Assembly: GCA_030407315.1 (NCBI GenBank)
Contig: JALQPE010001981.1
Span: forward strand, 51,317-115,316
Length of the DNA stretch: 64,000 nucleotides
DNA from: Asparagopsis taxiformis
Taxonomy: Eukaryota > Rhodophyta > Florideophyceae > Bonnemaisoniales > Bonnemaisoniaceae
Direction of reading: 5' to 3'
Part shown: positions 4,236-63,659 of the stretch, piece after piece
How the letters are laid out: the number at the start of each line of letters is the position of its first letter
Position numbering within the stretch: position 1 is the stretch's first letter
Notes under the pieces: generated by a model
The model's input: only the letters and a program-made list of their open reading frames with translations
What the model was told of the DNA's origin: nothing
Databases searched by the model: none
Program-made: the position numbers and the translations under genes

Positions 4236-7217
4236 TTAGTCGTTCTGTGATGAGCGAAACGATGCTCTGGAACCTCTGGTGTTTTGGTGAGTCTCATTCT
4301 TGTGGAATGTAGGTGCGCATTTCGAACATATCTTTTCTGCCTTATCACCACCTCCACATAGATTGTGCACTGGAATCTTGCAAGCCACACATCTAGACAG
4401 AATTCTTTCTGGAACTTGAGCTGCATCATCCATCTGAAACTTGCACTCGTCACCTGATGCACATATCACTTTCACCGCTTTTACAACGTGTTTATCCTTA
4501 CTGCAATCCTGAGTCATGTCCTGGACCTGCTCTCTTCTTCTCTTTTCTGTATATCCAGAAGCTCCGTTTTGGTTGCAACCTTCCTCAACTTCCAGTGTTT
4601 CCAATTCCATGTTCTCAATGTATGAATCTCTATTTTGAGAAGATGATATCTTCTTTGAATAGCAGGGCTCAGAGGTAGCGATGTCTTCATTGAAAGTGTC
4701 ACCCTTTGAATCAAAAATACTGATAAGTCTTTGAGAGTCTTCGATAGCTCCTGGAGGACGTGTAGACGACATTCTAGTACACTTCATTCTCTCAAGGCTC
4801 AAAACTTTTTCTTTTGCATACATTCGTATACGTTTTGCAGCCAATCTGAAACAATCTGGAATATTTTCAATAAGAGTACACTTGCGATTGCTAGCTAGAC
4901 ATGCAATTCCAGTGGTCATTGTCCCCGCATAGGGGTCCAGTACATGACCACCATGAGGACAAAATGTGAGGAGGATCTCAAGAAGAAGTGATGGGTTCTT
5001 TTCTTCTACTCTTACACGAGTACGAGTTCCTGGATACACAAGTTTGTTCCTCGTCATTGGCACATTGTCAATAGCTGCAAACTTCCGTTTGTGTGTACTC
5101 TCAACCAGACTATACTGGTCTTCCAAGTTTATCTTGAAGGAAGGATGAATTCCATCTCTTTTTGCAACCAACCCGTACTCAGAAGTGTTCTGAGGAAATA
5201 TTTTGGAGTTATTTATTTGCATTTCACCGGATTTCTTCACAACGTTGAATGGGTATGCCATGACCATCATCCCTACATCGCTGAAGGCCTTTTTCCATCT
5301 CACAAATAGATGAATTGAGGTAAATAGGAAGATGTATGACCCTTCTGAAAGGCACCGCCTCGAGAACTGCGCCAGATCACACATTTCCTTGTCACCTATA
5401 TAGTCTACATATCCCTTTCCAGTCTGAGCTTGGTTGCTTTTCACCGAGTAGGGTGGATCGCACAGTATGAAGTCAAACTTCGCATCTTGCGGTAGAATAG
5501 TCTTTTCGAATTGCTGCCATGTCATTTGATGCAGTTCGATGCCAAAGTTTTCAAGTGGACACTTGCTAGAAGCAATTTCATCAGATGTATCCTGGGCAAC
5601 CTCTATCCTATGCAACCTTTCAGTCTGAGCACCAGAGTTTGCATTAATTTTTTCTCTATCCAACTGGATGCCAGCTTTCCTAAAATCATTCCGTGCATGA
5701 GCAGAATTATTCATTCGAACAGAACCAGACCCACCGTCGCGATTATTCCTTTCATTTTGTGTATCTCGACCATCTTCACTAGGATTCCTTATATCAATGG
5801 AGCAGTTTCCTTCCGTTCCCAAAGATGTGTTCTCTTGATCATCACTTGCAATAGTTTTTGGTTTGTCAGACTCACTTCCTTTCGGAGAGTTGCTCGGTTC
5901 TGCAAGGTCTTTATGTGTGTCGGCACAAATCGCAGATGAATCCTTTGTGTTATCTTGACTCCGACCTGCATTCATGTACTTCTGGGAAAGGAAAGAGTGA
6001 TTATGAGGACAACACTTGGCATGGATTTTGAGCAACGCAAGAAGAATTTCGCGTCCATTGCTTTTGTTTTCTTCAACATCGGAATCAAATAGACTTGATC
6101 GAAGGAGATTTTGTTTGGCTAGAGACATACCAGGAGGCCAGGGATCTCCGCCCAAGAATTCGTCAAATTTTTCAGCTTCTAGACGAGCATTGATGGCCGC
6201 AATGGTCTGTTTCTGCAAAACTGAAGCACTGACAGGTTTGAAACCTGTAGCCTTACAGAATGCTTGAAGTCGATAGAGAGCATTTATCCGATCTTGTTCT
6301 GATGCCGACTTGAAGGAGGAGGCTCCTTTGAGGGTGTTCGTTGTTAGCATATTTCTGTACAATCTACTGTCCACTGAAGATTGAGCAGGAATGGAACTGC
6401 CATCTTGTACCGCTTTCCTCTTGTAGTGTTTACCAGCAAGTTTTTCGTACTCCCCATTCACAATCTCCCCGATCACCTTTAGTACAGGTTCAGTCAAGGA
6501 AATTGCACAACCCGCTAATTGACGGAGAGTGGATGTGGCTCTACCCTGGCCACCACAGTAATGGTCCGCAACAGCGGTAACAAATCCTTTGGTTTTCTCA
6601 TTTGTTCCGAGGAACTTCTGCAGGTAGTACGAATCATCTTTTAAGTTGCGGAGAATGTCATACTGAGTTGTCTCTATTATGTACTCAGATTCCTGGAAAG
6701 CATTGCAAGCACGCGCATAAGCTCGAAGAACGTGTATCTCAGCCGGCTTAACTACCATAACGCTCCACATGAACCCTGACCATTGGTTTGGTTTCTTCTC
6801 AATGAGCCTAAGGATAGTTTGATGGCGGTGTGCCCCATCAACTATCCCATACCAAACCTCCTGAGAAGCCACATGTTTTCGAGCTTCTTCGTCGGAAAGT
6901 CCGCTAGAGCTGAAATATTCTTGTGGGTAGCTATCGTAATGTCCGGCGAGCTTGATAACAGTCGCCTTACCTCCAGCTGAACTTAATCCAGTAATGAAAT
7001 CCTTCCCCGAACTTCCACCTTCAAAGCAGTGCTCCAATCTGGCTATACCAGACTTGGAAAGAGATCGGACCTTTGTCAACGGAATACAAGACCTCGGGTC
7101 GACCTTCGTAAGGAATGCGCCATCTTCAAGCTCAGAGAAAGCAGCTTTAGATACAACCAATTCATTCTCATCTGAGACATTAGTTTTCTGTCTCTTCTTC
7201 TGACGCCTTCGAGACAT
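4236..7217 (-). CDS. ParB-like / beta-class DNA amino-methyltransferase / PHD-like zinc finger fusion
   Basis: 993 aa starting at the ATG at 7217 (the frame is open two codons further). Order: basic N-terminus (RRRQKKRQK, possible nuclear signal); ParB/Srx-like domain about residues 35-240 with the signature DGAHR near 127-131; low-complexity polar linker about 415-545; DNA methyltransferase about 555-800 with DPPY (587-590) followed downstream by the SAM-site motif DPYAG (761-765); C-terminal Cys/His zinc-binding segment about 919-968 (CxxC...HxxC...CxxC, PHD-like). DPPY before the SAM motif is the beta-class order of N6-adenine/N4-cytosine methyltransferases of the N6_N4_Mtase family. No frameshift or stop is present. 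It lies inside transposon E1, divergent from the transposase, and ends about 70 bp from the left TIR. Inference: it methylates element or host DNA, with the ParB and zinc-finger modules as targeting parts. Confidence 0.82.
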   Translation of the reverse strand: MSRRRQKKRQKTNVSDENELVVSKAAFSELEDGAFLTKVDPRSCIPLTKVRSLSKSGIARLEHCFEGGSSGKDFITGLSSAGGKATVIKLAGHYDSYPQEYFSSSGLSDEEARKHVASQEVWYGIVDGAHRHQTILRLIEKKPNQWSGFMWSVMVVKPAEIHVLRAYARACNAFQESEYIIETTQYDILRNLKDDSYYLQKFLGTNEKTKGFVTAVADHYCGGQGRATSTLRQLAGCAISLTEPVLKVIGEIVNGEYEKLAGKHYKRKAVQDGSSIPAQSSVDSRLYRNMLTTNTLKGASSFKSASEQDRINALYRLQAFCKATGFKPVSASVLQKQTIAAINARLEAEKFDEFLGGDPWPPGMSLAKQNLLRSSLFDSDVEENKSNGREILLALLKIHAKCCPHNHSFLSQKYMNAGRSQDNTKDSSAICADTHKDLAEPSNSPKGSESDKPKTIASDDQENTSLGTEGNCSIDIRNPSEDGRDTQNERNNRDGGSGSVRMNNSAHARNDFRKAGIQLDREKINANSGAQTERLHRIEVAQDTSDEIASSKCPLENFGIELHQMTWQQFEKTILPQDAKFDFILCDPPYSVKSNQAQTGKGYVDYIGDKEMCDLAQFSRRCLSEGSYIFLFTSIHLFVRWKKAFSDVGMMVMAYPFNVVKKSGEMQINNSKIFPQNTSEYGLVAKRDGIHPSFKINLEDQYSLVESTHKRKFAAIDNVPMTRNKLVYPGTRTRVRVEEKNPSLLLEILLTFCPHGGHVLDPYAGTMTTGIACLASNRKCTLIENIPDCFRLAAKRIRMYAKEKVLSLERMKCTRMSSTRPPGAIEDSQRLISIFDSKGDTFNEDIATSEPCYSKKISSSQNRDSYIENMELETLEVEEGCNQNGASGYTEKRRREQVQDMTQDCSKDKHVVKAVKVICASGDECKFQMDDAAQVPERILSRCVACKIPVHNLCGGGDKAEKICSKCAPTFHKNETHQNTRGSRASFRSSQND

Positions 7218-8527
7218 CTTCAATTGAAATTTCTTGCTGCGTTGAAAGATAGGTGGAAAATATCGCTACCTCGCAGATGATGGGATAGTGGTCACGAAGT
7301 AGTGCGCTGATCACCGCGTTATGAATAGAGGTGGAAGAAATCGGTTCCAGCTCCAGTTAAAAGCAGGAGTGTCGCGGATATGAAGAAATTTCACTTGGAG
7401 AGGCAACCTATGCGCTTTCCCTAGCCCTTTACCTTTATCATTGATGTCATGGAGCAAAATTGATCCGGATCCAATTGTGATCCGATTCAGCTATGTTCAG
7501 TTCGTTGGGAAGAGTCTCAGAGATCTACATGAATATCCCAATCACTACCATGGAGCTTAGACCTATCACCTGATTCTAAAAACAGGAATTGGCCTGAAAG
7601 AACAGAGATCACAATCATCTCCAATTTATGATGAATCTAGAATGTACAGTAAATTGCGAGTATGTCTGCTTCTAATGTGCTACTGCCAGATACAAAACTT
7701 AAATTATGAATGAAATACAGCCTCTTTTAGAACCCTAGCTTTTCCACAACATGATTCAGTCAGCTTTCAAAGAAGAGAGGCTATCTTCATCCAGCGTGAA
7801 TCTATCGAGTGATATTGAAAACATGTAGTTGATGAGTTTTGTACACGTATAATTGTGCTATCGTGTAGGAAACCCATCATCTTTCAAACTGAGAGAGGTG
7901 TGAATATTATGCAGTTCTTGTAACAACAAGAGGCTGATTTCTATTTCAGCGGTTTACGGGCCAAAGTAAATGGTCGAGCAACGATTGCTGCACAACGGCG
8001 CACCATTCTGTTCTCAAAAGAGTATTCAAACGTAAAGGTTTGGTGCCGTAACATGATATATCGATATCATCAGTATGCGTGGTGCGTCACACATCAGTAT
8101 GATATTCACGCGATGGAACGAAAATATTTGAATATATTTTAATATGGAACAATTGTTCCAGCCCAATAGTGTCGATGAAACTCGAAATCAATCTCAGTTT
8201 TCATGAGCCATCACTATGACTGGATGCAGGTTTACATACATATCTATCGAAGACCATGTGCCTTTTGAATCAAGTGACCGTTTTTTTCAAAGGCTTCACC
8301 TCTGCTTCGTATGATACGGAGTTCAGCTTCATATATGAAGCTAATGCGCCGTAGAACTCCGTGCATTCAGAAGTGAAATTTCATGCGTTCATGTCATTAC
8401 ATGTATACTTCAAAGCAAACGATGCTGCTATGGTAGTCCTCTGGGGCACGAGCTCAACTCCTATCTTCAGATCCAAACTTGTTTCAAGGATAGATACTGT
8501 TATCTACACCATTATCAGGTGTGCCAA
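7218..8527. promoter_or_regulatory. Divergent intergenic region between methyltransferase and transposase of E1
   Basis: About 1.3 kb separates two genes transcribed away from each other, so it should hold both promoters. It is AT-rich with no long open frame. I could not fix a TATA box or initiator. Shared control of the two genes follows only from the head-to-head arrangement. Confidence 0.4.
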
Positions 8528-11048
8528 ATGAGCCCAGACCAAAACAAAGTTCTTTGGAGCCAAATGATGCAGTTGCATGAGAACAAAGACGCAGAAAAGC
8601 TTCCAGGAAACTTCTCGATTTCAAGACGACATTCATGCGCAAACCAGGAGTATTCGGATTCAAATGATTGCTCTGATTTTAGTGGAAATACCTCTAGTTC
8701 CGAAGACCGAGACCCGGATTGGAAACCTTATCGAATAGCTAAGAGTTCCCCTCCTTTCTCCGTTGATAATGCAAAAATGAGGGTGAGTGGTTTTCTTCCT
8801 CTTTAGAACCACAACACTTGTGTAAACCGACATGTCGCTCTGATATACTCGCTTCTGAAGCGGATGGAAGCCCTTACTCGAAGCTTCGAAAAAGGAAATA
8901 CACGTTTAAGAATAGGGCAAGGAGTAAACGAGGAGGGCTAAGTCTTCTACGACAGAAAAGAAAAAATGCCTCAACTTCCACTATCAACCCATTCCTGGAA
9001 GATCGACTGTGTTGCCAGCGTTTGAAGTTCTTCCAGAGAGTTGATAAGCATTATCTTTTTGAACAACACAAAAGGGTGATGGGTATGTCTCGGGAACAAG
9101 TGAAACGTACCCTTACTTCCATGTATAACCCAGAGACTAACAAATTCTACTTCAATGCACAAAAAGTCTGCAGCATATTTATCTCAGAAGCCTTCGGGAT
9201 TTCAAAGACTTTGCAGTCTTGCGTGAAGGGAACCAAATGTGCTCGTGCTTCAAGCTCAATTGAAACGATGCCACGATGTCCTCCAATCAATGGTTGCAAG
9301 AGAGATTTCATCATTAACTTTCTAAATAGTCTCGCTGATAACACTGCCCAGCTTATGCCTGACTGTAATGAGAAGCATTTACCCTGGTTCGATAAGAAAT
9401 CGGTTTACAATCTGTTTCGCGAAGAATTCTCCATGGTAGATGCAGCTGCTAATCCGATACCACCGCCCTCGGCAAGCTATTTCTATAGGACATGGAGTCA
9501 ACACGTGCAGTCTGTGAAAGTTCGTCGCCACCACCGTTTTACTAAGTGCGATGAATGCGAGCTCCTTCGCTCCGAGCTGAACAAGTGTGGTACCAATGAG
9601 CAGAGAGAAAAGCCGATTCTCATGCGTCAAAGATTACATCATGATTTTATTGGCAGAGAGCGACGCGAATATGCGAGGAAAATTCAACAGGCGGAGAGGA
9701 ATCCTTCAGTTATCTGTTCGATGGTTGTAGATGGAGCTGATCAGTCAGCCTTTGGTCTTCCCCATTTCACTTTTGATACCAAGTCGAGTCGAGGCCACAA
9801 GCTCAAAACGAAATTAGTGGGAGTACTGGAACACGGTCCAACAAAAAGGTTGAACCTCTTTCTACTTACAGAGGAGTTTCAGACTGGAGGAAACCACGTG
9901 ATAGAAAGTATCCACCGCGTTATACAGCAAAAATATGAAAGTGGCCTTTTCCCAAAGACATTGTATGTGCAGCTCGATAATTGCACACGAGAAAATAAGA
10001 ATCGCTTTGTTTTGGCCTACCTTGAAATGATGGTGTCAAAGGTGTGTTCGAAGAAGTTTATGCCTCATTTCTACCCATTGGACACACGCACTCAGACATT
10101 GACCAATGTTTCAGCAGGACCTCCCACCGACTTCGCTTGAACGATGCTATCACCATGGATGACCTTTTATCTGAGCTTCGGAAATCATTTAGTCCTACCC
10201 CTCATGTTTCCAGGATGCTTCACGTGGCAAATTTTTCAGAGTTGTGTACACAAGAGAAATGCTTAGCCAAAGTTCCCGCATTCAGCCACTTCAGGTTTTT
10301 TAAATTTTGCCGAGCAAGTGGACCTCCCAGATCTGAATTTGAGTCGTATAGGACATTGTGCTTGGTTCGGATTGGGTGCAACGACAACTGGTGTAATTTA
10401 TCAGAGAACAACAGCGGATTTCTGAGGCGAACTCCTGACATTCGCTTGACGCCTCCAACCGTCTTGGAGGCCCCGGACAACCTTGCAGAGGAAAATAAGT
10501 TTCTGGACTCTAATGAAGCTAGAATTGGAGATGCTACGAAACTTGCATCTCTGAAGCATTTGAGGGATCGCGTGTACACTTCTAGGAATGAGGACTTCCA
10601 CTGGGACATGGGACAGGCGGTAGAGATGAATGGAAAGTACAGGATTCATCAGAGCTTTGATACTGACGGATATTCCTCTAGCGTGGATTTCGCAAATGGA
10701 ACGCCACACTACAAATTAGATTACGATGCTCACGAGTTCATTGCAGTGAAGAAAGATGACAAGAACTCTCCATTTTGGATTGCAGAGATTATATCTATTA
10801 TGAGAGATGGATTTGATTCTACTGCAAGGGCTCTCAAAGTTCGTTGGTATGAGGCTTCTGGAAAGGAGAGAGACGCTTTCTATGCCACATACAAACCGAG
10901 CTTTATGCAGGTATCCGGTGAAAAAGTCCCTTATATGCAAGATATCAGTGTCAAAACAGTTTTGGTGAAGTTCTCAGCGTTGAGAAGAGACAACAAACTA
11001 ACTGTGAATGATTCAAAAAGCATCCGGTCAGCTCTTGGAATATCTTAG
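8528..11048 (+). pseudogene. DUF7869-like DDE-type transposase gene of E1, frame broken by small changes or introns
   Basis: Three consecutive frames encode one protein: 8528-8806, 8818-10140 and about 10044-11048. The motifs VDGADQSAFGLPHF, VQLDNC.RENKNR and FLPIGHTHSDIDQ are spaced like an RNase-H-fold transposase; the Asp residues in them are candidate catalytic acids. I match this by eye to DUF7869-type proteins. Break 1: the first frame runs into GTGAGT at 8783. An intron 8783-8883 ending CGAAG would join the frames; a frameshift is the alternative. Break 2: at 10041-10047 GTGTG appears to carry an extra GT; removing it joins the frames, and the related copy at 15350-15420 reads through at this site. 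After the catalytic region comes a C-terminal domain (PFWIAEIISI near 10770) also found in the second copy. Probably recently inactivated, or spliced. Confidence 0.68.
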
Positions 11049-11283
11049 TACATGAGATATCGCACATCTAGTTGATACCCTGACGTTCATTGCCAATACT
11101 GTCGCACGCCAAGTGACTCCCAAAAGAATATTCTACTCATACGGGATTATTTGTCCAGGATCCCTCCATACTTGACAGACTTCTACTTCAATAGGAACAA
11201 CTTAGTGAGTGAAGCTTCTTCTGTCATGTTTCGCGTCTCAAAACATAGGATAATGAATTTTTCACGACCAGCCAAGAACCTGC
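11049..11283. other. 3' flank of the E1 transposase, nothing recognised
   Basis: A 235-bp unique spacer between the transposase stop and the right TIR. No gene or motif seen. It probably holds the transposase polyadenylation signals. Confidence 0.4.
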
Positions 11284-13877
11284 TATACTGTTTTCATCCG
11301 AGCTGTTCTGGCGTGCCATTCGATAATCTGGTGATACTGGAACGAGAATTGTTTCCAAAGTTTCCATTCACTTCACTAGCTACTGATTGACGATGTAAAG
11401 AAATTTGGATTCCATGGATTGACGCACTGCCTGTCCCCTCGGAGATAATCAAACATGCGTTCGTGGAGATGATAAATTATTATCAAGCTGTTAACTCCAA
11501 GTTGAAGGAACCTGCTTCGACTGTGTGCAAACCGATCCGGAAGGGGTGCCGATGCTATCGTGGCGTTGGCGTACAAATTGCTGCATCAGATGGTGATCAA
11601 TATTTAATGGAGGGAATCATCAATGAGATGAAGGGAAGTGCCTTTATCATGCATGCATGTGAGAGTCGTATACACGATTTTCTCACAGGATTAGTAGCCG
11701 TGCTGAATTTCAGTACTGATTCAGTACTTGGTAGATAGTCAGCTATCTATATCAGCTGTTGTAGTTACAGCAGCTTTCATACATACTACAGCTTTCCAAG
11801 ATGAAATAGCGTCGAGATAATCATACGCAACATGTAAGTGCTAGCAGACTATGGAGCTGCACCTGCTCACAGGCAGTAGCAATAGATCATTCGTTCAGTT
11901 CAATTAAATTTCTGCTATGTAACTAACCTTATGAGTGTTGCTGGCGACAGGTTTCAGAGTGTTTGAAGCATCAGAAAGCTCGAGCGCTGGGAAGGTATTT
12001 GAAGCGAGCTTTTGCAATTGTATGAGATACACCGGCACATCTTTCATCTTAGTTTCCTTCCGTTGCAAACTACTATCAATACGTTATAAAAATATATTGG
12101 TGTCGAATAGTAGCCGGTAACAACCAGCGTAGTGCTGCAGCTTGAAGATTTCCATCATTATATGGCCTCGATCATTGCATTACGCATTTGTATGCGTGCA
12201 AACATTGTGGCCGTAGTGTAGATAGGATCCTTTTCAACTAGGAAAGGATACTGTTGCACCATTTGATGATTCCCATTGACTGCAAAATTTCGAAGAGTGA
12301 ATGCTATACTCACAACAATGGCATGTAATGGAATGCCCTCGATTCAAAGTAGCATCCTAATGCCTGGGAGTTTAATCCATTCGCCAATATGTCGCTGCAG
12401 TTTTCCCTCATATTTTCCGCTAGAACGAGAGCCACGATTCGCAGTGACGGATTGTATTTACAATGATGCATGACATCACGCAAAATAATTACAGTATGCT
12501 TCAGTAGAGCCCTGCAAGTATTCCATATGTTGGGAGCATTGATCAACGCACACAGTACTCTGTGATCTGATGAATTTGTATGAAAAAATATCCAACAACT
12601 CTATTGGTGGTTGTGTTCTTATCGCAATCGTGATTGATGGGTGACATTCCGCTTTTGAATTAGCCAATCTAACATGAAATTAAGAGGGATCTAGTTTGTT
12701 ACAGCACTCCAGAATTTTATTGTTTTGCCAAACCAGCGGTGTCACAAGCACAACCCTTGCTCTATAGTTTTGCCGCTGCTCTCATGTGGCCCATCGGTAT
12801 GTGTCACGCAGATGAATATATTCTTTTGCAGTTGACGTCATAAAGTCCCAGTAATGGCTGGGCAGGCCCTAAACAGCTCCGGTGCCCTCCACAAGTACAT
12901 CAGCCAATCAAAATAGTTATGATTGTGGGTATTTTTCATACTTCCATTGGCCAAGATATAGTGTTGCCTCGGCACCTAGGTGAATTTAAACATGCCATGT
13001 CAGACGGCTATCTTGTAGACAAATGAATATCCTCTGTAATGCCTGGTGAACTGCCACTTGGACAAATTACATCCGTATAAAACAGTGAAAGCCTGACGTA
13101 AACTATACGTCCATCTTGACGTGACGGTACGTCACAGCGTACTCTGTGCGCTGCAAACAGTGTTCATGTGGGCCGTACTCAATCTTGTTTCGACTTTTGG
13201 AGCTGCAGCTTCTTTGCGGTATGCGTGCAGGCAAGGGAAAAAAACCCTTCATGTTCACCAGTGATACGCCAGGGTTAAATTGATTCCCAGCTAGCTGTGA
13301 ATGTACCATTACAGTCACTCACGGAGGCCCCAACAAGCACTGCCACGGCTTCTAGAGTCACAGTAGCACTCCAACACGCCTCTACCACTCTCTGACCACC
13401 ACTTTCATCACTATCCAGCGGTCAGAAATCGACACTCCTATTCATTCAACATCGCCACGGCCACCAAAGAGTAATACTTCAGTGTAGTGCATTGCAGATA
13501 GCCATATGAGAAATAAATGCATAAATTCCAAAATCGAGTCAAACCACTGGACTAATAGCTTGGATTTCTCATCAATGAATGAAAACGCATAAACGTGATG
13601 GTGGTGCGGCCAGAAACTCTCTCCAGAGGGTATGCAGTACACCATGCCAAACCGGTCATACTTTATTACACCGATATTATCTCTATTCCTCCCGCGTAGC
13701 TAGTAATTTAATATTAACATCTAATTAAGTAGCACGGCTTCCAATTAATTCACCAACTACACCACTGTAAAGCTCAGATTCTCCTCTTTCCAATGACATT
13801 AATTTCATCCAAATAAAATACATTTTGGTTTTTGTCCATTTTGAAAATACCAGTCTGAAATACGTGAAAGTGGTGTT
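11284..13877 (-). repeat. E1 right terminal inverted repeat (2594 bp)
   Basis: Reverse complement of 1574-4167, ending ...GTGGTGTT, followed at once by the GAAT duplication. The inner boundary is the start of TATACTGTTTTCATCC at 11284. At one site the left arm encodes Arg and the right arm Cys in an antisense frame (single-base difference near 11428). Confidence 0.9.
11469..11738 (+). CDS. Small unknown protein inside right TIR (89 aa)
   Basis: Second copy of the frame at 3713-3982. The same frame is open back to 11391. No recognisable domain. See the left copy for the alternatives. Confidence 0.3.
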   Translation: MINYYQAVNSKLKEPASTVCKPIRKGCRCYRGVGVQIAASDGDQYLMEGIINEMKGSAFIMHACESRIHDFLTGLVAVLNFSTDSVLGR

Positions 13878-18724: not shown

Positions 18725-18732
18725 GAATGAAA

Positions 18733-52883: not shown

Positions 52884-52929
52884 TTTTTTGTTTTTGAGGA
52901 AGAGAGAGAGTGTGTGTGTTTACTACGTT

Positions 52930-53847
52930 CTAATGGTTCACTCCAAGTCCTACGCGCTCACGATGCTTAGCACTCTTGATGTGACGAGTATAGTCTTCGA
53001 TAGAGACGAAGGAACGATCACACGGGCGACAGTTTAATTCGACTTGATGGTTTCGAACTCGGCGCTTGTGCTTTTCGGAATCGATGTGGGCTAGAAATTG
53101 AGCCCTGGTCTTGGCTGATTTTCGGCAAAGTGTGCAGTCGAAACTTCTTGTGGGAGTCTTTGGTTTAGGGTTCCTCTTGGCTTCTTTGTATGTTGCGGTT
53201 CGGAGAAGATGCTGCGAGGAACGGTCGTCGATTGGCAACAAGGTGCGCTGCGGAGGGATAGTGGTCGAAGCAGAGGCGCGATGTGAGCTAGGAGTTGCTC
53301 TGGGGGCCGGTATGTTTTGTCGGGAGACCGTCTTTCCGAGAATACGATGAGTATTGCCGACCTTCTTGGGCGTGTTCGGAGCGTCCGACTTGGGTGCCAC
53401 CGTGAATCGAGGGAAAGCAGCCCGGGGCGGTTGAGCACGAGGGGCGGGTCGAAGACGTGGGGTAGGAAGAATGGTCTTCTTCGTGATCGGAGGGCGAATG
53501 GCGAGGCGAAGGGTCACTCTCGGCACGAAGGCGGGGAGAACCGCTTTAGGCTTGGCGATAGCAGGAGGTAAAGGGCGGAAGTCGTCGTCAAGGTCGATGA
53601 CGGTCGGCGGCGGAGCGGGCGGAGTATCGACGGTGGGGGTCTGTGGGGTGGTGTCGGCTCTAAGGGCGACGATCCCAAACGGCGGAGTCTGCGGGGGCCG
53701 AGTGAGGGGGGAACTCGGGAATGCGGCACTATCGTCGGAGCGGTATTCCGACGGGGAGTCTGGGGTTCTGTGGGAAAAAGATCGTGGTCCGGCCACTGTC
53801 CAACAGGAAAAATCCTCAAGATGGTTAGTCAAGTCGTAGTCAGTCAC
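52930..53847 (-). CDS. gypsy2 accessory protein with two C2H2 zinc fingers, upstream of gag
   Basis: Open frame of 305 codons between the 5' LTR and gag. Pro-rich, basic N-terminal two thirds; two U1-type fingers at the C-terminus, CTLCRKSAKTRAQFLAHIDSEKH and CRPCDRSFVSIEDYTRHIKSAKH (CxxC-x12-H-x5-H, about residues 240-300). There is no in-frame ATG near the 5' end (the frame opens with GTG), so it may start in a spliced upstream exon or at a non-AUG codon. A gene ahead of gag is unusual for chromoviruses. A nucleic-acid-binding regulator is the likely role, by domain only. Confidence 0.65.
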   Translation of the reverse strand: MTDYDLTNHLEDFSCWTVAGPRSFSHRTPDSPSEYRSDDSAAFPSSPLTRPPQTPPFGIVALRADTTPQTPTVDTPPAPPPTVIDLDDDFRPLPPAIAKPKAVLPAFVPRVTLRLAIRPPITKKTILPTPRLRPAPRAQPPRAAFPRFTVAPKSDAPNTPKKVGNTHRILGKTVSRQNIPAPRATPSSHRASASTTIPPQRTLLPIDDRSSQHLLRTATYKEAKRNPKPKTPTRSFDCTLCRKSAKTRAQFLAHIDSEKHKRRVRNHQVELNCRPCDRSFVSIEDYTRHIKSAKHRERVGLGVNH

Positions 53848-53920
53848 ACAACAGCGTAGACTCGATAGGAGAACTAGACTGCTGTGTGAAGCCAGAGATG
53901 GAGAAGTGGCGGGAACTTAC

Positions 53921-53934
53921 TTGCGATGCTACCA
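53921..53934 (-). promoter_or_regulatory. gypsy2 candidate primer-binding site
   Basis: On - TGGTAGCATCGCAA starts three bases inside the 5' LTR. Its first eight bases match the complement of the initiator-Met tRNA 3' end of many eukaryotes (..TGCTACCA). The match further in is poor. Confidence 0.5.
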
Positions 53935-53937
53935 AGC

Positions 53938-54772
53938 TGTGGGGGTTAAGGCACAACTTGGGAGAAGATGTTCCGGTCGAAGGTACCTCCGAATCCCTGA
54001 GGTGGGGAGCGGAGGGTAGTTTATATAGACTAGGAGGTAGCTCTAGGAGGGGTAAAATGAAGGGTAACTACGAGGAGCTACGAGGAGTAGGCATCGGGAG
54101 ATCAACCAATAGGAGAGGAGAATGGGAGATATTGTTGGTGGTGGCGGATCTGGAAACGGTCATAAGGAGAGTGTGACAGGGAGGGCCACGTGTAAGAGTC
54201 CAGCAATGTAACACGTGTAAGAGTCCAGCAATGTAACACGTGTAAGAGTCCAGCAATGTAACACGTGTAAGAGTCCAGCAATGTTTGGCAGGAACCCCTG
54301 ACACGTGGAAACCTGGAGCCGGGCGCGACCGGGCCCCGCAGGGCGGCTTACAGTGTAAGCTTACATTTCTTACATGTAAGCTTACAGTTGAAATTTCATT
54401 GAAAAACGAGGTTTCCGTCAGTTACAGTTGTAAGTTACCTGTCATACGGGCGTATGTGTGTAAGTAACCCTGTAAGTGGGGCGAAAGTGGCTGAAAAAGC
54501 CATGTAATCTTGTAAGTAACCGTGTCAGTCACATGACAGGTGTTGTAAGTCTATCATAACATGTAAGTAGCCTGCTCAAGTGTCTCCTAGGTGGTGTAAG
54601 GTATGTGGAAAGCTGTAAGTAGCCTCGTAGGAGTGGTTACTGTAAGCTTCCCTTGTAGTTGGGAGCTTTGGTCTCTGTGGAATGGTACTATCTTATTGGT
54701 TGGTCGGGGTATGGTGTTATAAGAACAGGAATCTAGTGTTTACCATGAGGTCTAGAGGGCTGATCCCTGACA
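53938..54772 (-). repeat. gypsy2 5' LTR (835 bp)
   Basis: Same as 47022-47931 except for four instead of seven 25-bp units (the 75-bp length difference) and about two substitutions. It should contain the promoter for the - strand transcript. Confidence 0.92.
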
Positions 54773-54777
54773 CATGA
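54773..54777. repeat. Target-site duplication CATGA, right copy (gypsy2)
   Basis: Follows the LTR end ...CCCTGACA and continues as CCTGGCAG, as at the empty site in element A. Confidence 0.92.
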
Positions 54778-55575
54778 CCTGGCAGAACAGGCGCAAAATT
54801 ATTGTATCTTCTACCGCCTTCTCTAGTCTATAATGACGTCATCGCTACAGAAATATAGGAAAAACACTAGCATATGGGGCCTACTGGAAAGGGGGAGGTG
54901 AAGAGTAGGAAAAATGGCGCACTTTCCTGGACGAGGAGTCCGCGCTTCCAGTGATGATTTGGACGGTATATATCGATGACGTCATTGCATGCTCTGAGCA
55001 CACTTGGCAGGCAGTCAAAGCGGGCCACGTGGATGTGGGCGGCTAGGAAACAGCAGTGTGGGAGAAATTTTATAATTTTCATGTTGCAAGCGAGCAGTGA
55101 ATCTGCATTGCAATATATAAATTTATGCTAATTTAAGATATCACACCGAGTACGATTCAACGAGAGATTGTGCTTTCAACTTGTAAATAGGGCCGAAAAT
55201 GGTAGAGTATACGAGTAGGAAGTACGTGTATGAGAAAATCAGATTCAGTATTAGTGCCTAGAGCATCACTGCGAAATAAACGGCCGTTTTCCGGAAATGG
55301 ATACATCTTGGCTGGGTTTGTGGTTAGGGGATGCGATACAAGATAGCAAAACGATGTTGAGTCCGGATGAAATAGCAATCAATGTGCATAAAGCAATGAG
55401 CATAGGGCAAAGCATTGTGGTGAACCAGTTCATTGGATCGAATGAAAGCCTGGAAAGGTTTCGTAACGGTTAAAAGTAGTAGTACTGTATTGAGATAGTA
55501 GTCATGTCGTAGAAGTTTAGAGTTGTATTCTATGCAACAAAACTGAGCGAAGAAGAAAAGAACAAAAACATCAAG
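54778..55575. other. 5' flank of the element B transposase
   Basis: Inverse counterpart of 35600-36410 in A. No supported gene. Presumed promoter/leader, now split from its distal part by gypsy2. Confidence 0.5.
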
Positions 55576-58500
55576 ATGGCTCCGAGACGGACTCCTATTC
55601 GAAAGAAAACCACAAGTCGTAGGACAAAGGCGAGATTCGATTCACTCAATGTGGCCAGTCCCAGTAAACAGCTTCCTGGGAAACTGCAGGGAGAAATCCG
55701 CAGCAGTGATGCAGCCTGCATGAACAAAGAAATCCCGAGAGGTAATGAGCTACGACGTGAGTGTACCACAGATGACCTATTGGAGTCCCCAATCCCTATG
55801 GGTGACACAATAGAAGGTTGTATTGATGTGTACAGCAACAACGATGAAGCTGGAAGTGACATCTACGTAGCATCGAGCACGCTAATGGAATCGGAAGAAG
55901 CAACCGGACGAGGTTCTGATTCCATTTCAACTGGAGGCCCGATAGACCGAAATGCTGGGGATGAAGCATGTGGTGATTTCAAGGCATTACTACAATAGCC
56001 TGCGATGTATGGGGCTCTTCAGCTGAGTGGAACTCAAAGAATGACAAGAGCCCACTATGAAGGTACCCTGTTCGGAATGAATTTCCGCAGAGATCCAAGT
56101 GAGCACGTCCCGTCGGACTCTGTGATGCGACAGAAGATACTACCATTCTTGAGGAAACACTGCTATGCAAAGAGCTGTGACATCGAGTTTCCGATAGACC
56201 TTCGAAAGAGCGGAGCAAGAGCTGCACAGCATCGAGGTGCAGTAGGAACCCGTGGAACAACAGATGACAGAGACAATTGTGGAGGAATGGCGAAATTTCG
56301 TATTGTACTCCCAAGCACATGGGCTCTGAAAGATGTCCAGACTCGACCAATCTTTAAAGCATTCCGCAGTGATGCGAACAATCGAAGCTCGGAAGGAGAA
56401 AAATCAACCGCAGAGTGCAGCATTGAAGATTCGTTCATTGCAAAGTGCAGGAGGGGTGTTTTGAGCGACCCATTCGTTCGCACAGCAGTTGTTCCCATTG
56501 ACAGCGATGGGAAAAAGGGTTTGAAGCACATTTATGTACCTGATGGAACAGCAATTCGAATCCGATGTCATCCAGGAGCTCGTCAGGTTGCCGTCATCGA
56601 AAGAGCAAAAGGGTTCAGGAAGAATGACAGAGATGGTGGGAAACCGAAGAGGAGAAGAGTGGCGGTTACGTCGTTGTGGGAACTTCATGCTAGGACCATA
56701 GTTACCTATGAGGCTCGACACGACGGTGAGCATGATGTGCATGTCGAAAAATATCTGCAGCCGCGAATGTCACATCTATTGGAATGGGAGAGGCAGCATG
56801 CTCTGCGAGCGATATCGCAATGTGTAAGCGGAGCAGGAGCCAAGGGAAAAGGAACACGAGCTGGGGACGTGATAACCGTTCTATTACCAATTGGAATGGA
56901 AGAGGGTGATATTGTTCCACACGTCGTATTGGTGAACAGGTATTTGAAAGAGCAGGTCGGAGAAGCATCCACCATGTTACTTTGCTTTTCACCCGGCGCG
57001 AGCTTTGCTGAAGCCAGAAACCCGCCCGATAGACTAGGAAGCCCCAACTATGAAGAAATTCGTGTTTCAGGGGTGTTCTCGGATGGTTTCGGAGACCACA
57101 GGTCGCAATGGCACCCAGCGTCTCCGCGAGAAGATGCACCATGTTGGGGAAAGCTGGAGGATGGTCGAAACTACTTTGTTTACCGATTTCTCCTTTACAC
57201 GGATGACTTTGAACCATTCACAAGCAGGAAGGGAAGTTTTGGTGGATGCTATATGTTACCTCTCAATCTACCGCCTCGGAAAAGGGAAGCTACCAAGCGT
57301 TCGAGTGATTGGTTTGCCACCTCCGGGAGTGTCCACAAATTGTGTATTGCGATATATCGTTCAAGATATAGTGCGAGGAAGCACAGAGGGTTTCCCAACG
57401 AAAAATGCAGAGGGAGAAGATGTTGTGGTATTTCTAGACCCAGTGGGGAGCATTGGAGACTATCCTGCAGTTTCACATACCCTGGATGTTCTTGGACACA
57501 CATCAAACTCTCCGTGCCACATCTGCAGTTTCCGCAAATATGACCTGAGCAGTACTGGTGGCACGAAGAATGCATACACTTCGGTAGTGAACGGGCAAAC
57601 ATCGACGCATGCCAGGAGCAAGTATCGGAATGCATCGACACGTAAGGATGCCACAGAAACCCAGCTTCGCACTCTCGGACTGGCTGCAGAAGAAGGGGAA
57701 GATTTACCATTTCATGTCCTGAGCACTTCCTTGGAAGCAGTGCAGGAAGAAGTACCGAAGACGGAAAACGGAGTTTCAGTTGTCCCAGCAATTTTTGACC
57801 CGTACCGTTCCGCAGTGATAGCACCTGACCATCTATTGTCTGGACTGGCACAAGATGTACTGAACGCTTGTATTTCAGCTGCCAGCCCACGGATTCGAGA
57901 GGTAGCTGAATTGCAAATTCTGGGCGCTCTGAAGAAGTTCAGGATGGGAAGGCAGAACCGTTTATTTGGAACCAACAATCTGCTTTCCATGAACATGAGT
58001 GACATATTCAGTGTGCTGCTGATAGCACCTATGGCATTCGAAAACGCAGCTCGAATGATGGATGGGAAAGGGGAAGGTCATCGTGAAAAATTCGATGGGG
58101 CCATCAAACTAGTAGTGAAGTTACAGAAGCTGGTTTCGTGTATCAGTTTCATGCCCGTATGGTGGAAAGACGGTCCACATGAAGTAGAGACGGCTGACGG
58201 AGAAGGTGGCAGGAATGAATAAATTCTGGGAAGAGCCGTAGACTACGTGGAGACGTTGAATGAGTATTGTCGGAAAGTGAAGGGAGCAGGAGCACATTTG
58301 GACAAGCCTAATGTTCATCGTCTTGTCGAGTTTTGTGCTCATACGCTTCCTGCCTACGGCTCTGTGAAGCACGTGCAGGAGCTTATATTCGAACGGATGC
58401 ACCAGCCACTGAAGAAAGGTGTGAGAATGTCCAATCACCAAAGCGAACAGCTTTCAGCGCTGGAATTAGTTCTTGCGGATGACTGGCAGACGAGAGTGGC

Positions 58501-59377
58501 CATTGTTTTGCGCGAAATCGGCATGGAGCCGCAACATTGGTCCTCGTCCGAATGCTCTCAAATGGTCAACGTTCTCTCACAGGAGCTAGGGAGAGAAATA
58601 GATGTGGAAGACGAGGTAGTGAAAAACTGCTTCCAAGAACCGGTTCTCCAGCTTCTCTCCCAGCGGCGAGGAATGACATTGTCGGCGGATGGTGAAATTG
58701 TGACGTGGAGGGGGCATGGAGGTATATCTATTGACGAGGTCAAGGAGTACATGAATGGAAAATGTGATATGGCAGAGGGTGCTGTAGGTGTTTTCAAACG
58801 GTTCTTTACCGAAAGGTACGGAAGCGGAACAAGCGGGTGTGGAAAGTATGCCGAATGGGTGAGAAGAGTTTCTAGAAGCACTACGACAGAGTGGGGAAGG
58901 AAAACAGTGCAGAGGTCTGGCTCTCTAGAATCAGGAGCTATCATCCATGCTGTTTGCCCTGAACAGAGGATATGTGAGGATGGTGCAACTTCACAAGCGA
59001 TTCTGTACCCGGCGTCTCGTCTCACATCAGAGATAATGCGGGGAAGAATTAATTATGAACCGCGGTTTTTTATTGTTCTAGCGTTCTTTATCCTGAGGAA
59101 CGAGAATGCGAGAGATGAGCAAGGTACAGCTTATGGAGTTTGCCTGGGTTTGCAAAAAACTGATGAAGGAGTGTTCAAGGTCGAAGAGAGGCGACGAACA
59201 GTAATTGTGGAGATGAGTGAGGGAGTCACTGAGGTGTTTGGTATGCACTATTGCAATGGGAGTGTATGCGTATATGATGAGAACATGAGGGAGGTAAGGC
59301 ACGGACCCGGACTGCTGGAGGGTGGAGAGATATATGCACTATGTAGGCGAGACGGATTTCCACCGAGGGCTGCATGA
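55576..59377 (+). pseudogene. CACTA (Tnp2-like) transposase of element B, inactivated by point changes
   Basis: Encodes about 1265 residues over 55576-55998, 56005 to about 57290, about 57300-58222 and 58223-59377. Its first part matches A residues 1-724. The Tnp2-like stretch has VVFLDPVGSIGDYPAV (about 57424) and NSPCHICSF (about 57507). The C-terminal part (NVHRLVEFCAHTLPAYGSVK, then ELIFERMHQPLKKGV) fits the conserved end of CACTA transposases. Lesions: TAG at 55996-55998 where A has TGG; two single-base losses near 57285 and 57299 relative to A; in-frame TAA at 58220-58222. The divergence is small, so inactivation is recent. It lies next to the terminus and is transcribed away from it. 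Confidence 0.8.
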
Positions 59378-59498
59378 TTTTTAGGGAAGAATAAAATGAA
59401 TAACCAGATGCATCACATATGAATTGTACACTCTAGGGCGTTGGTGGATTGGTGCAAAGTAGTGGGGAGAGGATCTGAGAGGATGGAGGGAGGTATGC

Positions 59499-59740
59499 TT
59501 ACAGCAAAGTCATCGTTACGATGATTTTGCTGTAAGAAAACGTTTCCATTACAGTGGCCAAGAATTTTTTACCGGGTAAAAAAATCGTGGCAGCTGTAAT
59601 GATTTGCTGTAAGGAACCGTTTCCTTGCAGTGGCCGAAGAATTTTTTACCGGGTAAAAAATCAGCAAGAATTTTTACCGGGTAAAAAAAATTGTGGCCGC
59701 TGTAATGATTTGCTTTCTTACAGCAAATTCATCGATTGTT
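59499..59740. repeat. Hairpin cluster of element B, between transposase and oxygenase genes
   Basis: One near-complete 37-nt palindrome (59499-59535), inverted repeats with TTTACCGGGTAAA, and a truncated half-palindrome ending about 59732 (CAGCAAATTCATCG). This cluster lies inside the segment deleted from A. Confidence 0.82.
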
Positions 59741-60536
59741 AAGGTTAAGTAACCAACTTTAGGATGTCCAGAGGACCTGCTCGTTGTAAGGAATATTGAT
59801 CAACTGACGAAGAGGAAGCATTTTGAATCGACTAGGGTAGGAACGCAATGAGATTTGGTATGCTAGAAAACTGAATCGCAGTAGTGAATAGGTAGTTGAA
59901 ATGAATTCATATTGATGTTCTTTGGTGTATTGTCCATTGGAGCACATTGAAAACCATTTATATGATCACCGTTTAAATGGTCTATGAATCCTTTGCAGCC
60001 GAGTACGCCAATAGGAAGAAATTCAAGCAGTGGCCTGCACGGGAACCGTTTATTTGTGAGTAGCAAAAGTTAGTGTAGAAATGAATTTTTCAGACTTGTA
60101 GGAGAGGTGGATCGTGGTAAATGTATAAAACTCACGTAGAATCAATTGATAGGAATCAATGGTACGGAAGAAGAAGCGAGGTGGAGAGTGTGGATGAAAT
60201 AGGTTGTTGGAATATGAATGATAATTGACGTGGTGAGGTAAACGGGTTCGATTGCATTATATGCGCTAGAGGTACATACTATTAGGTGTAGATTGATGGA
60301 AAGGGCTAAACGCTTTGTGGAGGTATCAGGATCAGGTAGAGTCAGAGGTGCTGAGCGGGTGCAGCGTAAGGTTCATCAGGACTGAAGGTAGGTAGGGGAT
60401 GTCTTGTCCGGACAGTATATGAGAGGAAGCTGAGAGACGGGAAGCGCACTCGGAGGTACCACAATTGTGGATTTCATCGTCTACACAACATTTGAACAGA
60501 GAACCGATTGAACGAACTGAGATTGCAGGGATTACA
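59741..60536. promoter_or_regulatory. Upstream region of the element B ParB/oxygenase gene
   Basis: About 800 bp of AT-rich sequence without a supported gene, between the hairpin cluster and the start codon. It should hold the promoter. Confidence 0.35.
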
Positions 60537-63500
60537 ATGGGAGACAATAGTATCATGAATACTACAGCGGAGAAGAGCAATTCTCCTTCTGCTGAAGAGA
60601 AAAGCATCACTATTGCTCAGTACAGCTCTTCTAAAGTGCAAGTTGATCCTCGCAAAGTGAAGTTTCCGACAGTGACCTCCCGTTTGGTGCGACCGGGTCG
60701 TGTAAACGAACTGGCCAGCATTTTCATGGATAGAGGTTTCTCTACCACTGGAACTATGATTACAGTCTGCAAAATGGAAGATAACGAAGGAGACGAGTTT
60801 TACTGCATCGATGGCTCTCATCGCATAGCTGCTCTGCAACTATGCCTGGAGAAGTACTCAGGAAAGAACAGGGATTCCTTGGAATTGGTTTGGGTACAAC
60901 AGTTGATTGCGCCGAACGGGCGTCTAATTTTCGATGCGCTGGAGGTTCTGAAACTGTCTCTCGAAGCCAATATACAAACTCACGATGTCGCTTCTGTGAG
61001 CATTGCCGACAATGTCTGTGCGGTCATAGAGTTTCTCAGGTTTTCCAACCAGATGGATCTTCCTGTTGTCCGGCTTATTCCTATTCTGAAAGAAGTGAGC
61101 TATATTCTGCCGTCCGACAGGAACCGTTCGGAGAACTCGTATAGGCAGTACATCAACATTGCGAAGGGGTTCAATCGCACAGACAGCGTTGCTTTCGTGT
61201 ACTGGAGCTCTATCCCTAGCGTTTACAATGCTTTGGATAGGAACAGAGAAATCGAGGATGCAAGAACCGAGGGAAGAGATCCGGACTTTTCTCGAATTGA
61301 CTCTGCCGATATGTACGGGTGCGTGCTCGATCTTGTCAATAACGCAATATTCCGCAATGGCACGGACGGACGAGGGACGCGCGATAAGGAGTGGTTCCAA
61401 TGGTTTGTGCTCGAGATGACAGCGTCGTGGACAAGGATGAGGAGGAAGAGAGGACTTGTCAGAAATATCGGAAGCGGAAGTCCGTTCACGATGCGCACTT
61501 GGCTACTGGCTCTGTTGGCCATCTATGATATGGCAGAGGTCGTCCGCAAATGGTTGAACTCTGCAACGATGGAGGAATTCGTGCGAACGGATTTGGCAGC
61601 AGAAAACGCGAAGGAGGTCGGGGATAATGATCATCGCATTGGAGAGCGCATTGTATTCGTCCTTGTCGACTTTCATGACGACGTGGTAGACAGTAGCAGT
61701 CTGAGAACCAAGAACGGGATGTTTACAAACAGTTTTTACGACAAACTGGAATATGCTACCGGGACAAAGGCAATGCAGGAGACGAAAGCGGAGGAGGAGA
61801 GGGAACGGAATCGCATGACCCCCGGAGAAATAGAAAAAGCACTTGTTGCTGGCGCCAAAGCAGAAGACGAAGAAGCACCTACTGCCGCAGAACAGGGAAA
61901 TAATTCTACAGAGAAGGAAACGGTGGAAACTTCTGGTCCTGTTCAAGCAGAAGAAGGAGTATCTGCCGAAGCCCAAGTAGAGCAGGAAGTTTCTGCTGTT
62001 GTGGAGGAAGAACAGGAAATTACTCCAAATGTGGTGGCTGAAGAAGTGATTCCTGCTGTCGCGACGAAAGCAATAGAAGAGGCACTTCTGAGCACCCCGA
62101 AAGAAGCAGAAGACCGTCCTGCCGCAGCAAAAGAGGGAGGACAGGAACGTCCTGCCACGCGTCTTGCAGCAGCTGAGAAGAGGGAAGCAGAACGTCTTGC
62201 TGTTCTCCAAAAAGAACAGGAACGTCTTTCAGCTTCAAGGGCAGAGCGGGAAAGTCGTGCCAGGGATAATTCGCCGGGAAGGATTGTCAGAGAAGATCTT
62301 CCTCAGGGAAGGAAACAAAGCGGCGATACGCAAAGTCTGGATATCAACTTGGACAATAGTGGTCGCATGGACATAGACACGCCTGGACAACAAGCTGGAG
62401 ATGCGCAGAACCGCTCTGTGATATTGAAACTTCGAATCAGGACACCAGAAACTAACAGCACTAGCCCGGCAGAAGCGGACAAGGAGAATTCGGGAAGAAG
62501 CAGGAGTTCTGGTGGAAGCGGCGATGAAAACGAGTCCAGGTTGCATAAGAAGCGAAGAAGGGAAGATACTAGCGCGAAGTTTTCTGAGCCCAATACGCCG
62601 GATGACAACATTGAGATTGGGCCTCCCCGGGAAAAGAAGAGTAGAGTCAATGCAAGAAAACGAACGACTGGAGAAGAAGCACCACTCTTCACTGACGAGC
62701 AAGAAAACTCCCTTCCAGACCGCACATTCGCAGAGGAGATACCTGAGAAGCTGCCTTTATGCGTTCCTTCCAACTCGAGAATGAAGTATTATATCACAGA
62801 AGAAGACATTGATACAATCCGGACGGAGATAATGGAAGCAGCTGCAGGCTACTCTACTTTGGTATGTCCCCTCGGTTCTTGTGAAAGCCAACAATACTTC
62901 AGCTACCAGAGAAGAATGATCGACGAGCTTGGTTACGTGGTGTTGCAAGACATTTTTTCTTCTACTACAGTGGGAGCAGCTACGCACGAGTTATTCACAC
63001 AGATGGCCAGCACATTCCAAGGTACTACAAGTGGGTCAAGTGCAAGTCAGAAGAACCCGTGGAAACCACTTCGACCGAAAGACAGCACTGGTGTATTCAA
63101 GACGGACCGGAAAAGCATCTGCGATGACCTTGAGCAAGAAAGCGCGCGGCAGTACAGGAACAAGCTGATTCTGGAGCTAGGTAAGGCGATTTGTGCGGAG
63201 AACCTGAAGCTCGGGTTTGGAAGAGAAGAAGCGGTGGTCTTTCCAGAAACGGGTCTTCGTCTGATTTTGACCGCAGAAGGTAGTCAGGAGCAACTTATGC
63301 ATATCGATGTTCCCGTCCGTGAGGGAACTGGAACTGGTCCTCTCAACTCGCCATCATATTTCATGATGGCTGCTGGTGCGGATGGGTTCATCATTCGTAT
63401 CGCCAAGTTCAGCCATGTGTGCCTAAGTCATCCAGCGAAAGACAAGTACCGCGTGCCAGTGACGAACGTGCGCATCCCACCGTATTCCCTGCTTGTATGC

Positions 63501-63659
63501 CGAACGGACGTGTATCACGGAGGAATGGGATTCGCAGAGGGTCGTTCTTCGGTGAGGTACCAGCATCCTATCCGGTCCCATCTATCACTGCGAACTTCCA
63601 GGGAGAAGTTGCTACAGCCTCCCTTCAATGTCAACTACTGGGAGCGTTTAGATATCTGA
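60537..63659 (+). CDS. ParB-like / 2OG-Fe(II) oxygenase fusion (paralog 2)
   Basis: 1040 aa from the ATG at 60537 (ACAATGG); the frame is open 24 codons upstream without an ATG. ParB-like domain about residues 25-130 with DGSHR at 92-96. The helical domain about 140-375 is related to paralog 1 (IADNVC.VIEF, then YWSSIPS). Acidic/Glu-Ala-rich linker about 415-575 with coiled-coil character (KREAERLAVLQKEQERLSAS), then basic patches (KKRRRED). C-terminal oxygenase about 735-1030 with HID (922-924), H994 in DVYHGG, and Arg in the following RYQHPIRSHLSL (1007 or 1013). The two paralogs share this architecture but differ widely in linker composition (Pro/Ser in 1, Glu/Lys in 2). Intact here; in element A only its tail survives, fused to transposase. 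Substrate unknown; a modified base in DNA is the working guess. Confidence 0.8.
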   Translation: MGDNSIMNTTAEKSNSPSAEEKSITIAQYSSSKVQVDPRKVKFPTVTSRLVRPGRVNELASIFMDRGFSTTGTMITVCKMEDNEGDEFYCIDGSHRIAALQLCLEKYSGKNRDSLELVWVQQLIAPNGRLIFDALEVLKLSLEANIQTHDVASVSIADNVCAVIEFLRFSNQMDLPVVRLIPILKEVSYILPSDRNRSENSYRQYINIAKGFNRTDSVAFVYWSSIPSVYNALDRNREIEDARTEGRDPDFSRIDSADMYGCVLDLVNNAIFRNGTDGRGTRDKEWFQWFVLEMTASWTRMRRKRGLVRNIGSGSPFTMRTWLLALLAIYDMAEVVRKWLNSATMEEFVRTDLAAENAKEVGDNDHRIGERIVFVLVDFHDDVVDSSSLRTKNGMFTNSFYDKLEYATGTKAMQETKAEEERERNRMTPGEIEKALVAGAKAEDEEAPTAAEQGNNSTEKETVETSGPVQAEEGVSAEAQVEQEVSAVVEEEQEITPNVVAEEVIPAVATKAIEEALLSTPKEAEDRPAAAKEGGQERPATRLAAAEKREAERLAVLQKEQERLSASRAERESRARDNSPGRIVREDLPQGRKQSGDTQSLDINLDNSGRMDIDTPGQQAGDAQNRSVILKLRIRTPETNSTSPAEADKENSGRSRSSGGSGDENESRLHKKRRREDTSAKFSEPNTPDDNIEIGPPREKKSRVNARKRTTGEEAPLFTDEQENSLPDRTFAEEIPEKLPLCVPSNSRMKYYITEEDIDTIRTEIMEAAAGYSTLVCPLGSCESQQYFSYQRRMIDELGYVVLQDIFSSTTVGAATHELFTQMASTFQGTTSGSSASQKNPWKPLRPKDSTGVFKTDRKSICDDLEQESARQYRNKLILELGKAICAENLKLGFGREEAVVFPETGLRLILTAEGSQEQLMHIDVPVREGTGTGPLNSPSYFMMAAGADGFIIRIAKFSHVCLSHPAKDKYRVPVTNVRIPPYSLLVCRTDVYHGGMGFAEGRSSVRYQHPIRSHLSLRTSREKLLQPPFNVNYWERLDI

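Follow-up and report, generated by a model that had tools for sequence, protein, structure and literature searches.

ParB-like modules fused to methyltransferases and putative oxygenases on DNA transposons of the red alga Asparagopsis taxiformis

How transposons counter epigenetic silencing is a long-standing question, and it is raised in concrete form by a 64-kb stretch of DNA (the window) with which contig C1856 of Asparagopsis taxiformis ends. Four long genes in the window, P0001 to P0004, encode proteins that share an N-terminal module resembling the ParB N-terminal/sulfiredoxin (Srx) fold. In P0001 this module is followed by a DNA methyltransferase and a SET domain, in P0003 by a methyltransferase and a PHD-like pattern, and in P0002 and P0004 by a putative 2-oxoglutarate (2OG)-Fe(II) oxygenase. 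The genes of P0001, P0004 and P0002 are cargo of one giant, recently active CACTA-type element, and P0003 lies in a second, DUF7869-type element. What might such enzymes do for the DNA that carries them? Our preferred reading, which we regard as an even call, is that a CACTA/EnSpm-type transposon carries a self-targeting epigenetic kit, in which ParB-guided writers and oxygenases keep the element readable and mobile. If true, a writer and a possible eraser that share a targeting module reside on one mobile element, and the question of transposon escape from silencing becomes directly testable. ParB would then also be a candidate for an epigenetic targeting module that eukaryotes can use repeatedly.

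Frames and domains were called from the open reading frames (ORFs) of the window and a Pfam profile search of their translations; genome searches covered the 141.5-Mb eukaryotic assembly. Its single RuBisCO large-subunit match, on contig C469, scored best against 8bdb of Griffithsia monilis, a red alga of Ceramiales (1049 bits), followed by 1bwv (971) and 4f0h (962), both of the red alga Galdieria, and by seven further entries at up to 951 among the ten sequences listed; provided that C469 belongs to the host, this makes a red-algal host most likely. A preliminary description of the window had proposed four unbroken frames, each protein starting with a DG[AS]HR-bearing domain, on two kinds of transposon (DUF7869-like with long terminal inverted repeats, and CACTA). 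All four frames are indeed open, P0001 and P0002 on the plus strand and P0003 and P0004 on the minus strand; the motif is present in 4/4 proteins, and inverted repeats, Pfam matches and read termini confirmed both kinds of transposon (Table 1).

The CACTA-type element and its cargo

At least eight contigs were listed for both the P0001 and the P0002 gene. In seven of the eight (C2268, C2584, C2805, C2260, C1830, C2637 and C454) the two genes are convergent and lie about 6.1-7.1 kb apart; the eighth is the window itself, where they sit in different element copies. Four independent elements, one for each enzyme gene, were rejected, since the gene spacing is shared among contigs. On C2637 the P0004 gene and palindromes lie between the P0001 and P0002 genes, collinear with the window; this P0004 copy is 97% identical over the first 948 amino acids and broken near its end. 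The same contig holds a 526-codon ORF, a 467-codon ORF on the other strand and an uninterrupted 1288-codon transposase-like frame. The order in this fuller element is ORF526, ORF467, ParB-methyltransferase-SET, ParB-2OG B, ParB-2OG A and transposase, with the right end outside the bases read.

The element ends carry the termini 5'-CACTA...TAGTG-3'. Target duplications of 2 bp (AA, GA and AG) flank 3/3 copies with both ends read, the GA/GA and AG/AG copies being paired by position, and fall in the range of 2-5 bp given for the CMCT clade in the available text of PMC12730594. Extended by the bases that follow it, the terminal motif gave 1267 genome matches (639+628) and the reversed pattern none (0+0). 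In the 1288-codon frame PCHIC was seen by eye, the H(3-4)H motif of CMC-type DDE transposases was not clear, and the Pfam search returned no match. As regards the KDZ transposons, neither transposase had a Pfam match other than DUF7869.

As the preliminary description had stated, the transposases in the window are broken or rearranged: that of copy 1 is fused to an oxygenase part (P0005), that of copy 2 lies in several frames, and the DUF7869 frame is split into two. Open frames exist outside the window (1288 codons on C2637; 787 and 815 codons at the DUF7869-type loci L045 and L046). In copy 1 the greater part of oxygenase A is missing, as is some of the transposase, and the P0005 of this copy is 97% identical to P0002 over 187 amino acids. 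Between ORF526 and P0001 copy 1 is also 1.3 kb shorter than C2637; because ORF467 spans the edge of this difference, a loss in copy 1 is favoured over an insertion in C2637. P0001 lies 12.6 kb from the right end on C64, 12.7 kb on C83 and 12.7 kb in copy 1. Given this near-equal spacing, judged from positions alone, the internal-deletion form without full oxygenase A seems to have transposed independently.

Two further observations concern the element. The 467-codon ORF of the fuller copy (L033, 3287-4687) has a start that looks Tudor-like by eye and no Pfam match. Subterminal repeats of the CAGACAGT...ACTGTCTG type, partly in 35-bp units, occupy the CACTA ends (18711-19060, 37296-38138 and 45421-46018) and are possibly transposase-binding repeats.

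The shared module and the enzymes

P0001, P0002, P0003 and P0004 share the ParB/Srx-like N-terminal module, by fold or by profile. The N-terminal domain of P0001 matched the ParB N-terminal/sulfiredoxin fold by structure, and the other groups were joined to it by profile matches to P0001, weakest for P0003. The earlier proposal of ParB/Srx-like N-termini, common to writer and possible eraser enzymes, is thereby supported.

The claimed methyltransferase and SET domains of P0001 were both found by Pfam (N6_N4_Mtase, E 2.3e-16; SET, E 4.5e-6, above the cut-off). The methyltransferase belongs to the beta class of amino-methyltransferases by its PF01555 match and by a DPP[YF] motif ahead of an FxGxG-like motif, the order being read by eye. 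Its best fold matches are CcrM, HpyAVI and MboIIA, and N4-cytosine enzymes match too. The DPP[FY] motif together with these best folds favours N6-adenine as the predicted target, and N4-cytosine is less likely. Among the fold matches was also the bdelloid rotifer N4CMT (8s9m, 8s9n, 8s9o), likewise a bacterial-type amino-methyltransferase in a eukaryote. Unlike the present proteins, N4CMT is a host gene product with a chromodomain and is not known to have ParB. No SET match was among the fold matches listed for the P0001 model, which is uninformative.

The architecture is not confined to this genome. P0009 (44% identity) and P0010 (30%) combine a ParB-like N-terminus with methyltransferase and SET in other assemblies. 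SET (PF00856) was above the cut-off in P0001, P0009 and P0010 and below it in P0011, a protein without the ParB-like N-terminus. P0008 is 99% identical and comes probably from the same species. A viral-contig scan with P0001 found no relatives, and among the phage records listed (25 of 39 and 24 of 24, respectively) the matches to P0001 and P0003 covered the methyltransferase part only. The same scan with the methyltransferase alignment gave five loci, with a ParB-like N-terminus seen by eye in L036 only; within 403 amino acids L036 combines DGHTR (by eye), weak helix-turn-helix (HTH) matches and PF01555, its ParB part being without a Pfam match.

In P0003 the proposed methyltransferase was found by Pfam (residues 584-795, E 6.1e-13) and the proposed PHD finger stayed below the cut-off (PHD_2, E 0.34). 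A Cys/His pattern, whose first spacing is unusual compared with C4HC3, was visible by eye within the final 75 residues at 20 of 30 P0003-family loci; at the remaining 10 the frame has a different end. The methyltransferases of P0001 and P0003 share 25% identity over 204 amino acids.

P0002 and P0004 are relatives (34% identity over their alignment), and with P0013 (27% identity) three proteins have the ParB-oxygenase architecture. An H-x-D...H...R pattern, H922, D924, H994 and R1013 in P0002, is invariant in 3/3 proteins. P0002 and P0004 are thus putative 2OG-Fe(II) oxygenases by this motif alone, and the oxygenase identity put forward before holds at motif level. Viral-contig scans with P0004 and with the oxygenase alignment gave no relatives.

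Are these genes under selection? Every scored copy was full length and without a stop, 40/40 for P0001 (99-100% identical) and 44/44 for P0002 (99-100% alike), counted among the best 40 of 3826 and the best 44 of 5155 genome candidates. The ratio of nonsynonymous to synonymous divergence (dN/dS) in the P0003 family is 0.104 (L010-L025) and 0.126 (L010-L027), at dS 1.9-2.0. By these two subfamily pairs the methyltransferase family is under selection, and the dN/dS analysis that had been proposed for the copies argues against neutrality there. The other distant pairs have dS saturated over the whole gene, and between P0002 and P0004 it is saturated in the domains, so that no ratio is claimed for most subfamily pairs or for P0002 versus P0004. 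In the latter comparison dN reaches 1.22 in the linker, against 0.70-0.73 for the N-terminal, middle and C-terminal parts; the lower values in the domains fit constraint on them.

Proposed self-targeting and its alternatives

The CACTA copies contain a second feature that may bear on targeting. The palindrome AGTCATCGTWACGATGACT occurs 15 times in the window at up to 2 mismatches (0.00 expected), and TTTTACCSGGTAAA at up to 1 mismatch gave 30 strand matches, equal to 15 places (0.04 expected). The core TTTACCSGGTAAA is present at 15 places of the window. None of the palindromes lies inside the eight genes checked. Judged by position, every one of them is intergenic within the two CACTA copies or follows the last gene, and the DUF7869 element has none. 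They differ from the subterminal CAGACAGT repeats. A role as promoters is not supported, because some are found past 3' ends and not just ahead of 5' ends.

ParB domains bind or hydrolyse nucleotides, and in bacteria they load at palindromic sites. In the self-targeting reading the module would recruit each enzyme to the DNA of the element, with the palindrome arrays as possible sites, and hold it there. The methyltransferase would write adenine (less likely N4-cytosine) marks on the element, SET would couple this DNA marking to histone methylation, and the oxygenases would oxidise or remove methyl marks, the host's or their own. Together the enzymes would allow the element to stay readable and mobile in the face of silencing by the host.

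Several points weigh against this reading. The P0001 model has a mean predicted local distance difference test score (pLDDT) of 45, with block means of 53-78 in the N-terminal domain. The fold does not single out ParB, because sulfiredoxin and free serine kinase match equally well. In the ParB-like region the better PHROG match was phrog_4272 (2.2e-5), a family of unknown function. Sequence searches of Pfam and PDB named no ParB domain in the window proteins and no 2OG domain in P0002 or P0004; against solved structures the N-terminal alignment (A6) reached a best E of 0.25 and the oxygenase alignment (A7) 0.29, both taken for chance. Profile matches to a true ParB, L001, were weak (14.7, 1.1 and 0.2%). 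This protein, bacterial-type RepB/ParB by eye and the single Pfam ParB_N match in the genome, lies on a 14.7-kb contig (C1526), is likely assembly contamination and served as reference only. The full-length P0002 model, built from four sequences, has a mean pLDDT of 31 and was unusable for a fold search. The copy counts rest on the best-scoring candidates, so those for P0001 and P0002 are lower bounds and biased to good copies. Close P0003-family pairs gave dN/dS of 0.587, 0.599, 0.499, 0.445 and 0.245, which leaves selection in recent bursts weak or unresolved. Finally, the marking could serve repression instead.

Alternatively, the enzymes may act on the host at large, as a global writer and eraser or in a self-repression that limits copy number, and not on the element in particular. 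SET and the PHD-like pattern are chromatin domains, and the 1267 terminal-motif matches indicate a large family. We consider this rather unlikely, however, because the shared DNA-handling module and the palindrome arrays, found within the window in the CACTA element only, suggest self-targeting. A more specific proposal is that a ParB-parS-like system has been rebuilt, in which clamps would load at the palindrome arrays and spread, each delivering a different enzyme, and the element would write and edit its own chromatin domain. ParB proper has a GERR-type cytidine triphosphate (CTP) box and an HTH that binds parS. We hold the rebuilt system to be unlikely.

Quite unlikely is a role of the module as a nucleoside triphosphate-dependent nickase for transposition or replication, with the fused enzymes protecting element DNA like a restriction-modification pair on one chain. 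Nonspecific nicking is cited in the available part of PMC5512222 for the ParB domain of the Bacillus cereus ParB-adenine methylase Bce_0392, and phrog_67 methyltransferases match from profile position 140, with room for an N-terminal domain; the SET, PHD-like and oxygenase partners, however, are not accounted for. That the genes are passengers without function for the element, carried by recent bursts, is very unlikely: the likeness of the listed P0001 and P0002 copies, by which open frames alone prove little, dN/dS of up to 0.6 in recent P0003-family pairs and the apparent movement of the form without oxygenase A would fit, but two subfamily pairs with dN/dS of 0.10-0.13, the recurrence of these architectures in other assemblies at 27-44% identity and the pairing of DUF7869-type transposase with ParB-methyltransferase in 2/2 diverged copies read do not.

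How much of the self-targeting kit has been described before? The preliminary description took a ParB module shared by writer and possible eraser enzymes to be undescribed, a claim that in this form is not supported. Sola1-1_Ec32, a large algal DNA transposon of Ectocarpus, has an accessory gene for a ParB-like protein with an N4C/N6A-type methyltransferase, which the authors suggest binds and marks the element itself; green and red algal transposon relatives and giant red-algal EnSpm elements are cited there as well (PMC12477816). It differs in belonging to the Sola-1 superfamily, and the available text mentions neither a fusion to SET, PHD or an oxygenase nor a further ParB enzyme. Fungal DNA transposons including EnSpm and KDZ carry TET/JBP (PMC12730594), alike in their 2OG-type dioxygenase cargo, to which P0002 and P0004 are likened by motif only, in a proposed anti-silencing role and in placing related enzymes on different superfamilies. 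A ParB module or methyltransferase cargo is not mentioned in the text available. Bacterial and phage ParB-methylases (Bce_0392, PMC5512222, seen in part; viral contig L036) also place a ParB-type domain ahead of an amino-methyltransferase, but are short, prokaryotic and without a chromatin domain. In the literature searched, which leaves out most subscription papers including Petroll et al. 2025 on Bostrychia moritziana, there was neither a fusion of ParB with SET or with an oxygenase, nor a writer-plus-oxygenase trio, nor palindrome arrays. Within that coverage these four may be new, and ParB-methyltransferases on algal transposons and transposon-borne TET/JBP are already known (PMC12477816, PMC12730594, both available in part).

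The DUF7869 element and neighbouring sequences

Table 1. Features of the window, with positions, strand and basis.
Feature	Position	Strand	Basis or remark
P0001, ParB-like + N6_N4 methyltransferase + SET gene	21992..25459 (open frame from 21983, 1158 codons)	+	Pfam, structure
ParB/Srx-like domain of P0001, residues 13-105	22028..22306	+	structure match
P0004, ParB-like + putative 2OG-Fe(II) oxygenase gene B	27552..31199 (open frame to 31268, 1238 codons)	-	motif
P0002, ParB-like + putative 2OG-Fe(II) oxygenase gene A	60537..63659 (open frame from 60465, 1064 codons)	+	motif
P0003, ParB-like + N6_N4 methyltransferase + PHD-like gene	4236..7223 (995 codons; ATG at 7217)	-	Pfam, Cys/His pattern
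CACTA-type element, copy 1	18711..38138 (19,428 bp)		internal-deletion form; CACTACGGTGTTGA at both ends
Target duplication AA, left	18709..18710		read at copy 1 end
Target duplication AA, right	38139..38140		read at copy 1 end
508-codon ORF, copy 1 cargo	19617..21143	+	no assigned function
5 bases (5-bp repeat) where C2637 has 1.3 kb more	21717..21721		extra stretch holds most of 467-codon ORF
P0005, deletion product: transposase N-part fused in frame to oxygenase A C-part	32711..35599 (962 codons)	-	
CACTA-type element, copy 2, opposite orientation	45421..64000		cut by contig end
CACTA-type transposase gene, frames broken	55513..59377	+	1288-codon open counterpart on C2637
Palindrome array between P0001 and P0004 genes	25734..27079		repeat and pattern search
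Palindrome array between P0004 gene and oxygenase A part	31403..32553		repeat and pattern search
Palindrome array between transposase and oxygenase A genes	59493..59734		repeat and pattern search
Palindrome array to contig end	63880..64000		repeat and pattern search
Left terminal inverted repeat, DUF7869 element	1574..4172 (2599 nt)		100% complementary to 11279-13877
Right terminal inverted repeat, DUF7869 element	11279..13877 (2599 nt)		100% complementary to 1574-4172
DUF7869 transposase-like gene, two overlapping frames (8770-10140, 10026-11048)	8770..11048	+	PF25273, E 4.7e-21 and 9.4e-22
Second Gypsy long terminal repeat (LTR) retroelement, inside copy 2	about 47022..54772	-	5-bp duplication CATGA by eye; P0006 long open pol frame

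The search for the P0003 family, in which the best 46 of 2641 candidates were scored, listed 56 stretches, where one copy may give several; besides near-identical copies these share 35-46% identity. Among the 30 loci (L007 and L008 being one copy) the longest frame from the first methionine contains DG[AFHL]HR in 18 and [DN]PPY in 29 (absent in L005). At the loci without DG[AFHL]HR the frame is truncated or broken, or its start lies past the motif. In the diverged copies L045 and L046 the open relatives of the DUF7869 frame are 45-53% identical and divergent from the ParB gene, so the pairing is kept in both copies read. P0007 is a partial relative of P0003. Adjoining the DUF7869 element, frames at 13996-15942 resemble a second DUF7869-type transposase by eye, and beside a P0003-type copy (L031, 4509-5360) an open hAT-transposase-like frame was seen by eye.

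Copy 1 of the CACTA-type element is inserted in Gypsy gag pieces (17168-18710 and from 38139, by eye). The stretches 17168-18710 and 38139-42811 are pieces of one Gypsy-type retroelement with broken frames, split by copy 1; by eye, their end at about 42.7 kb resembles a chromodomain. The LTRs of the second Gypsy element, at 47022-54772, have 300-nt stretches that are 99% identical.

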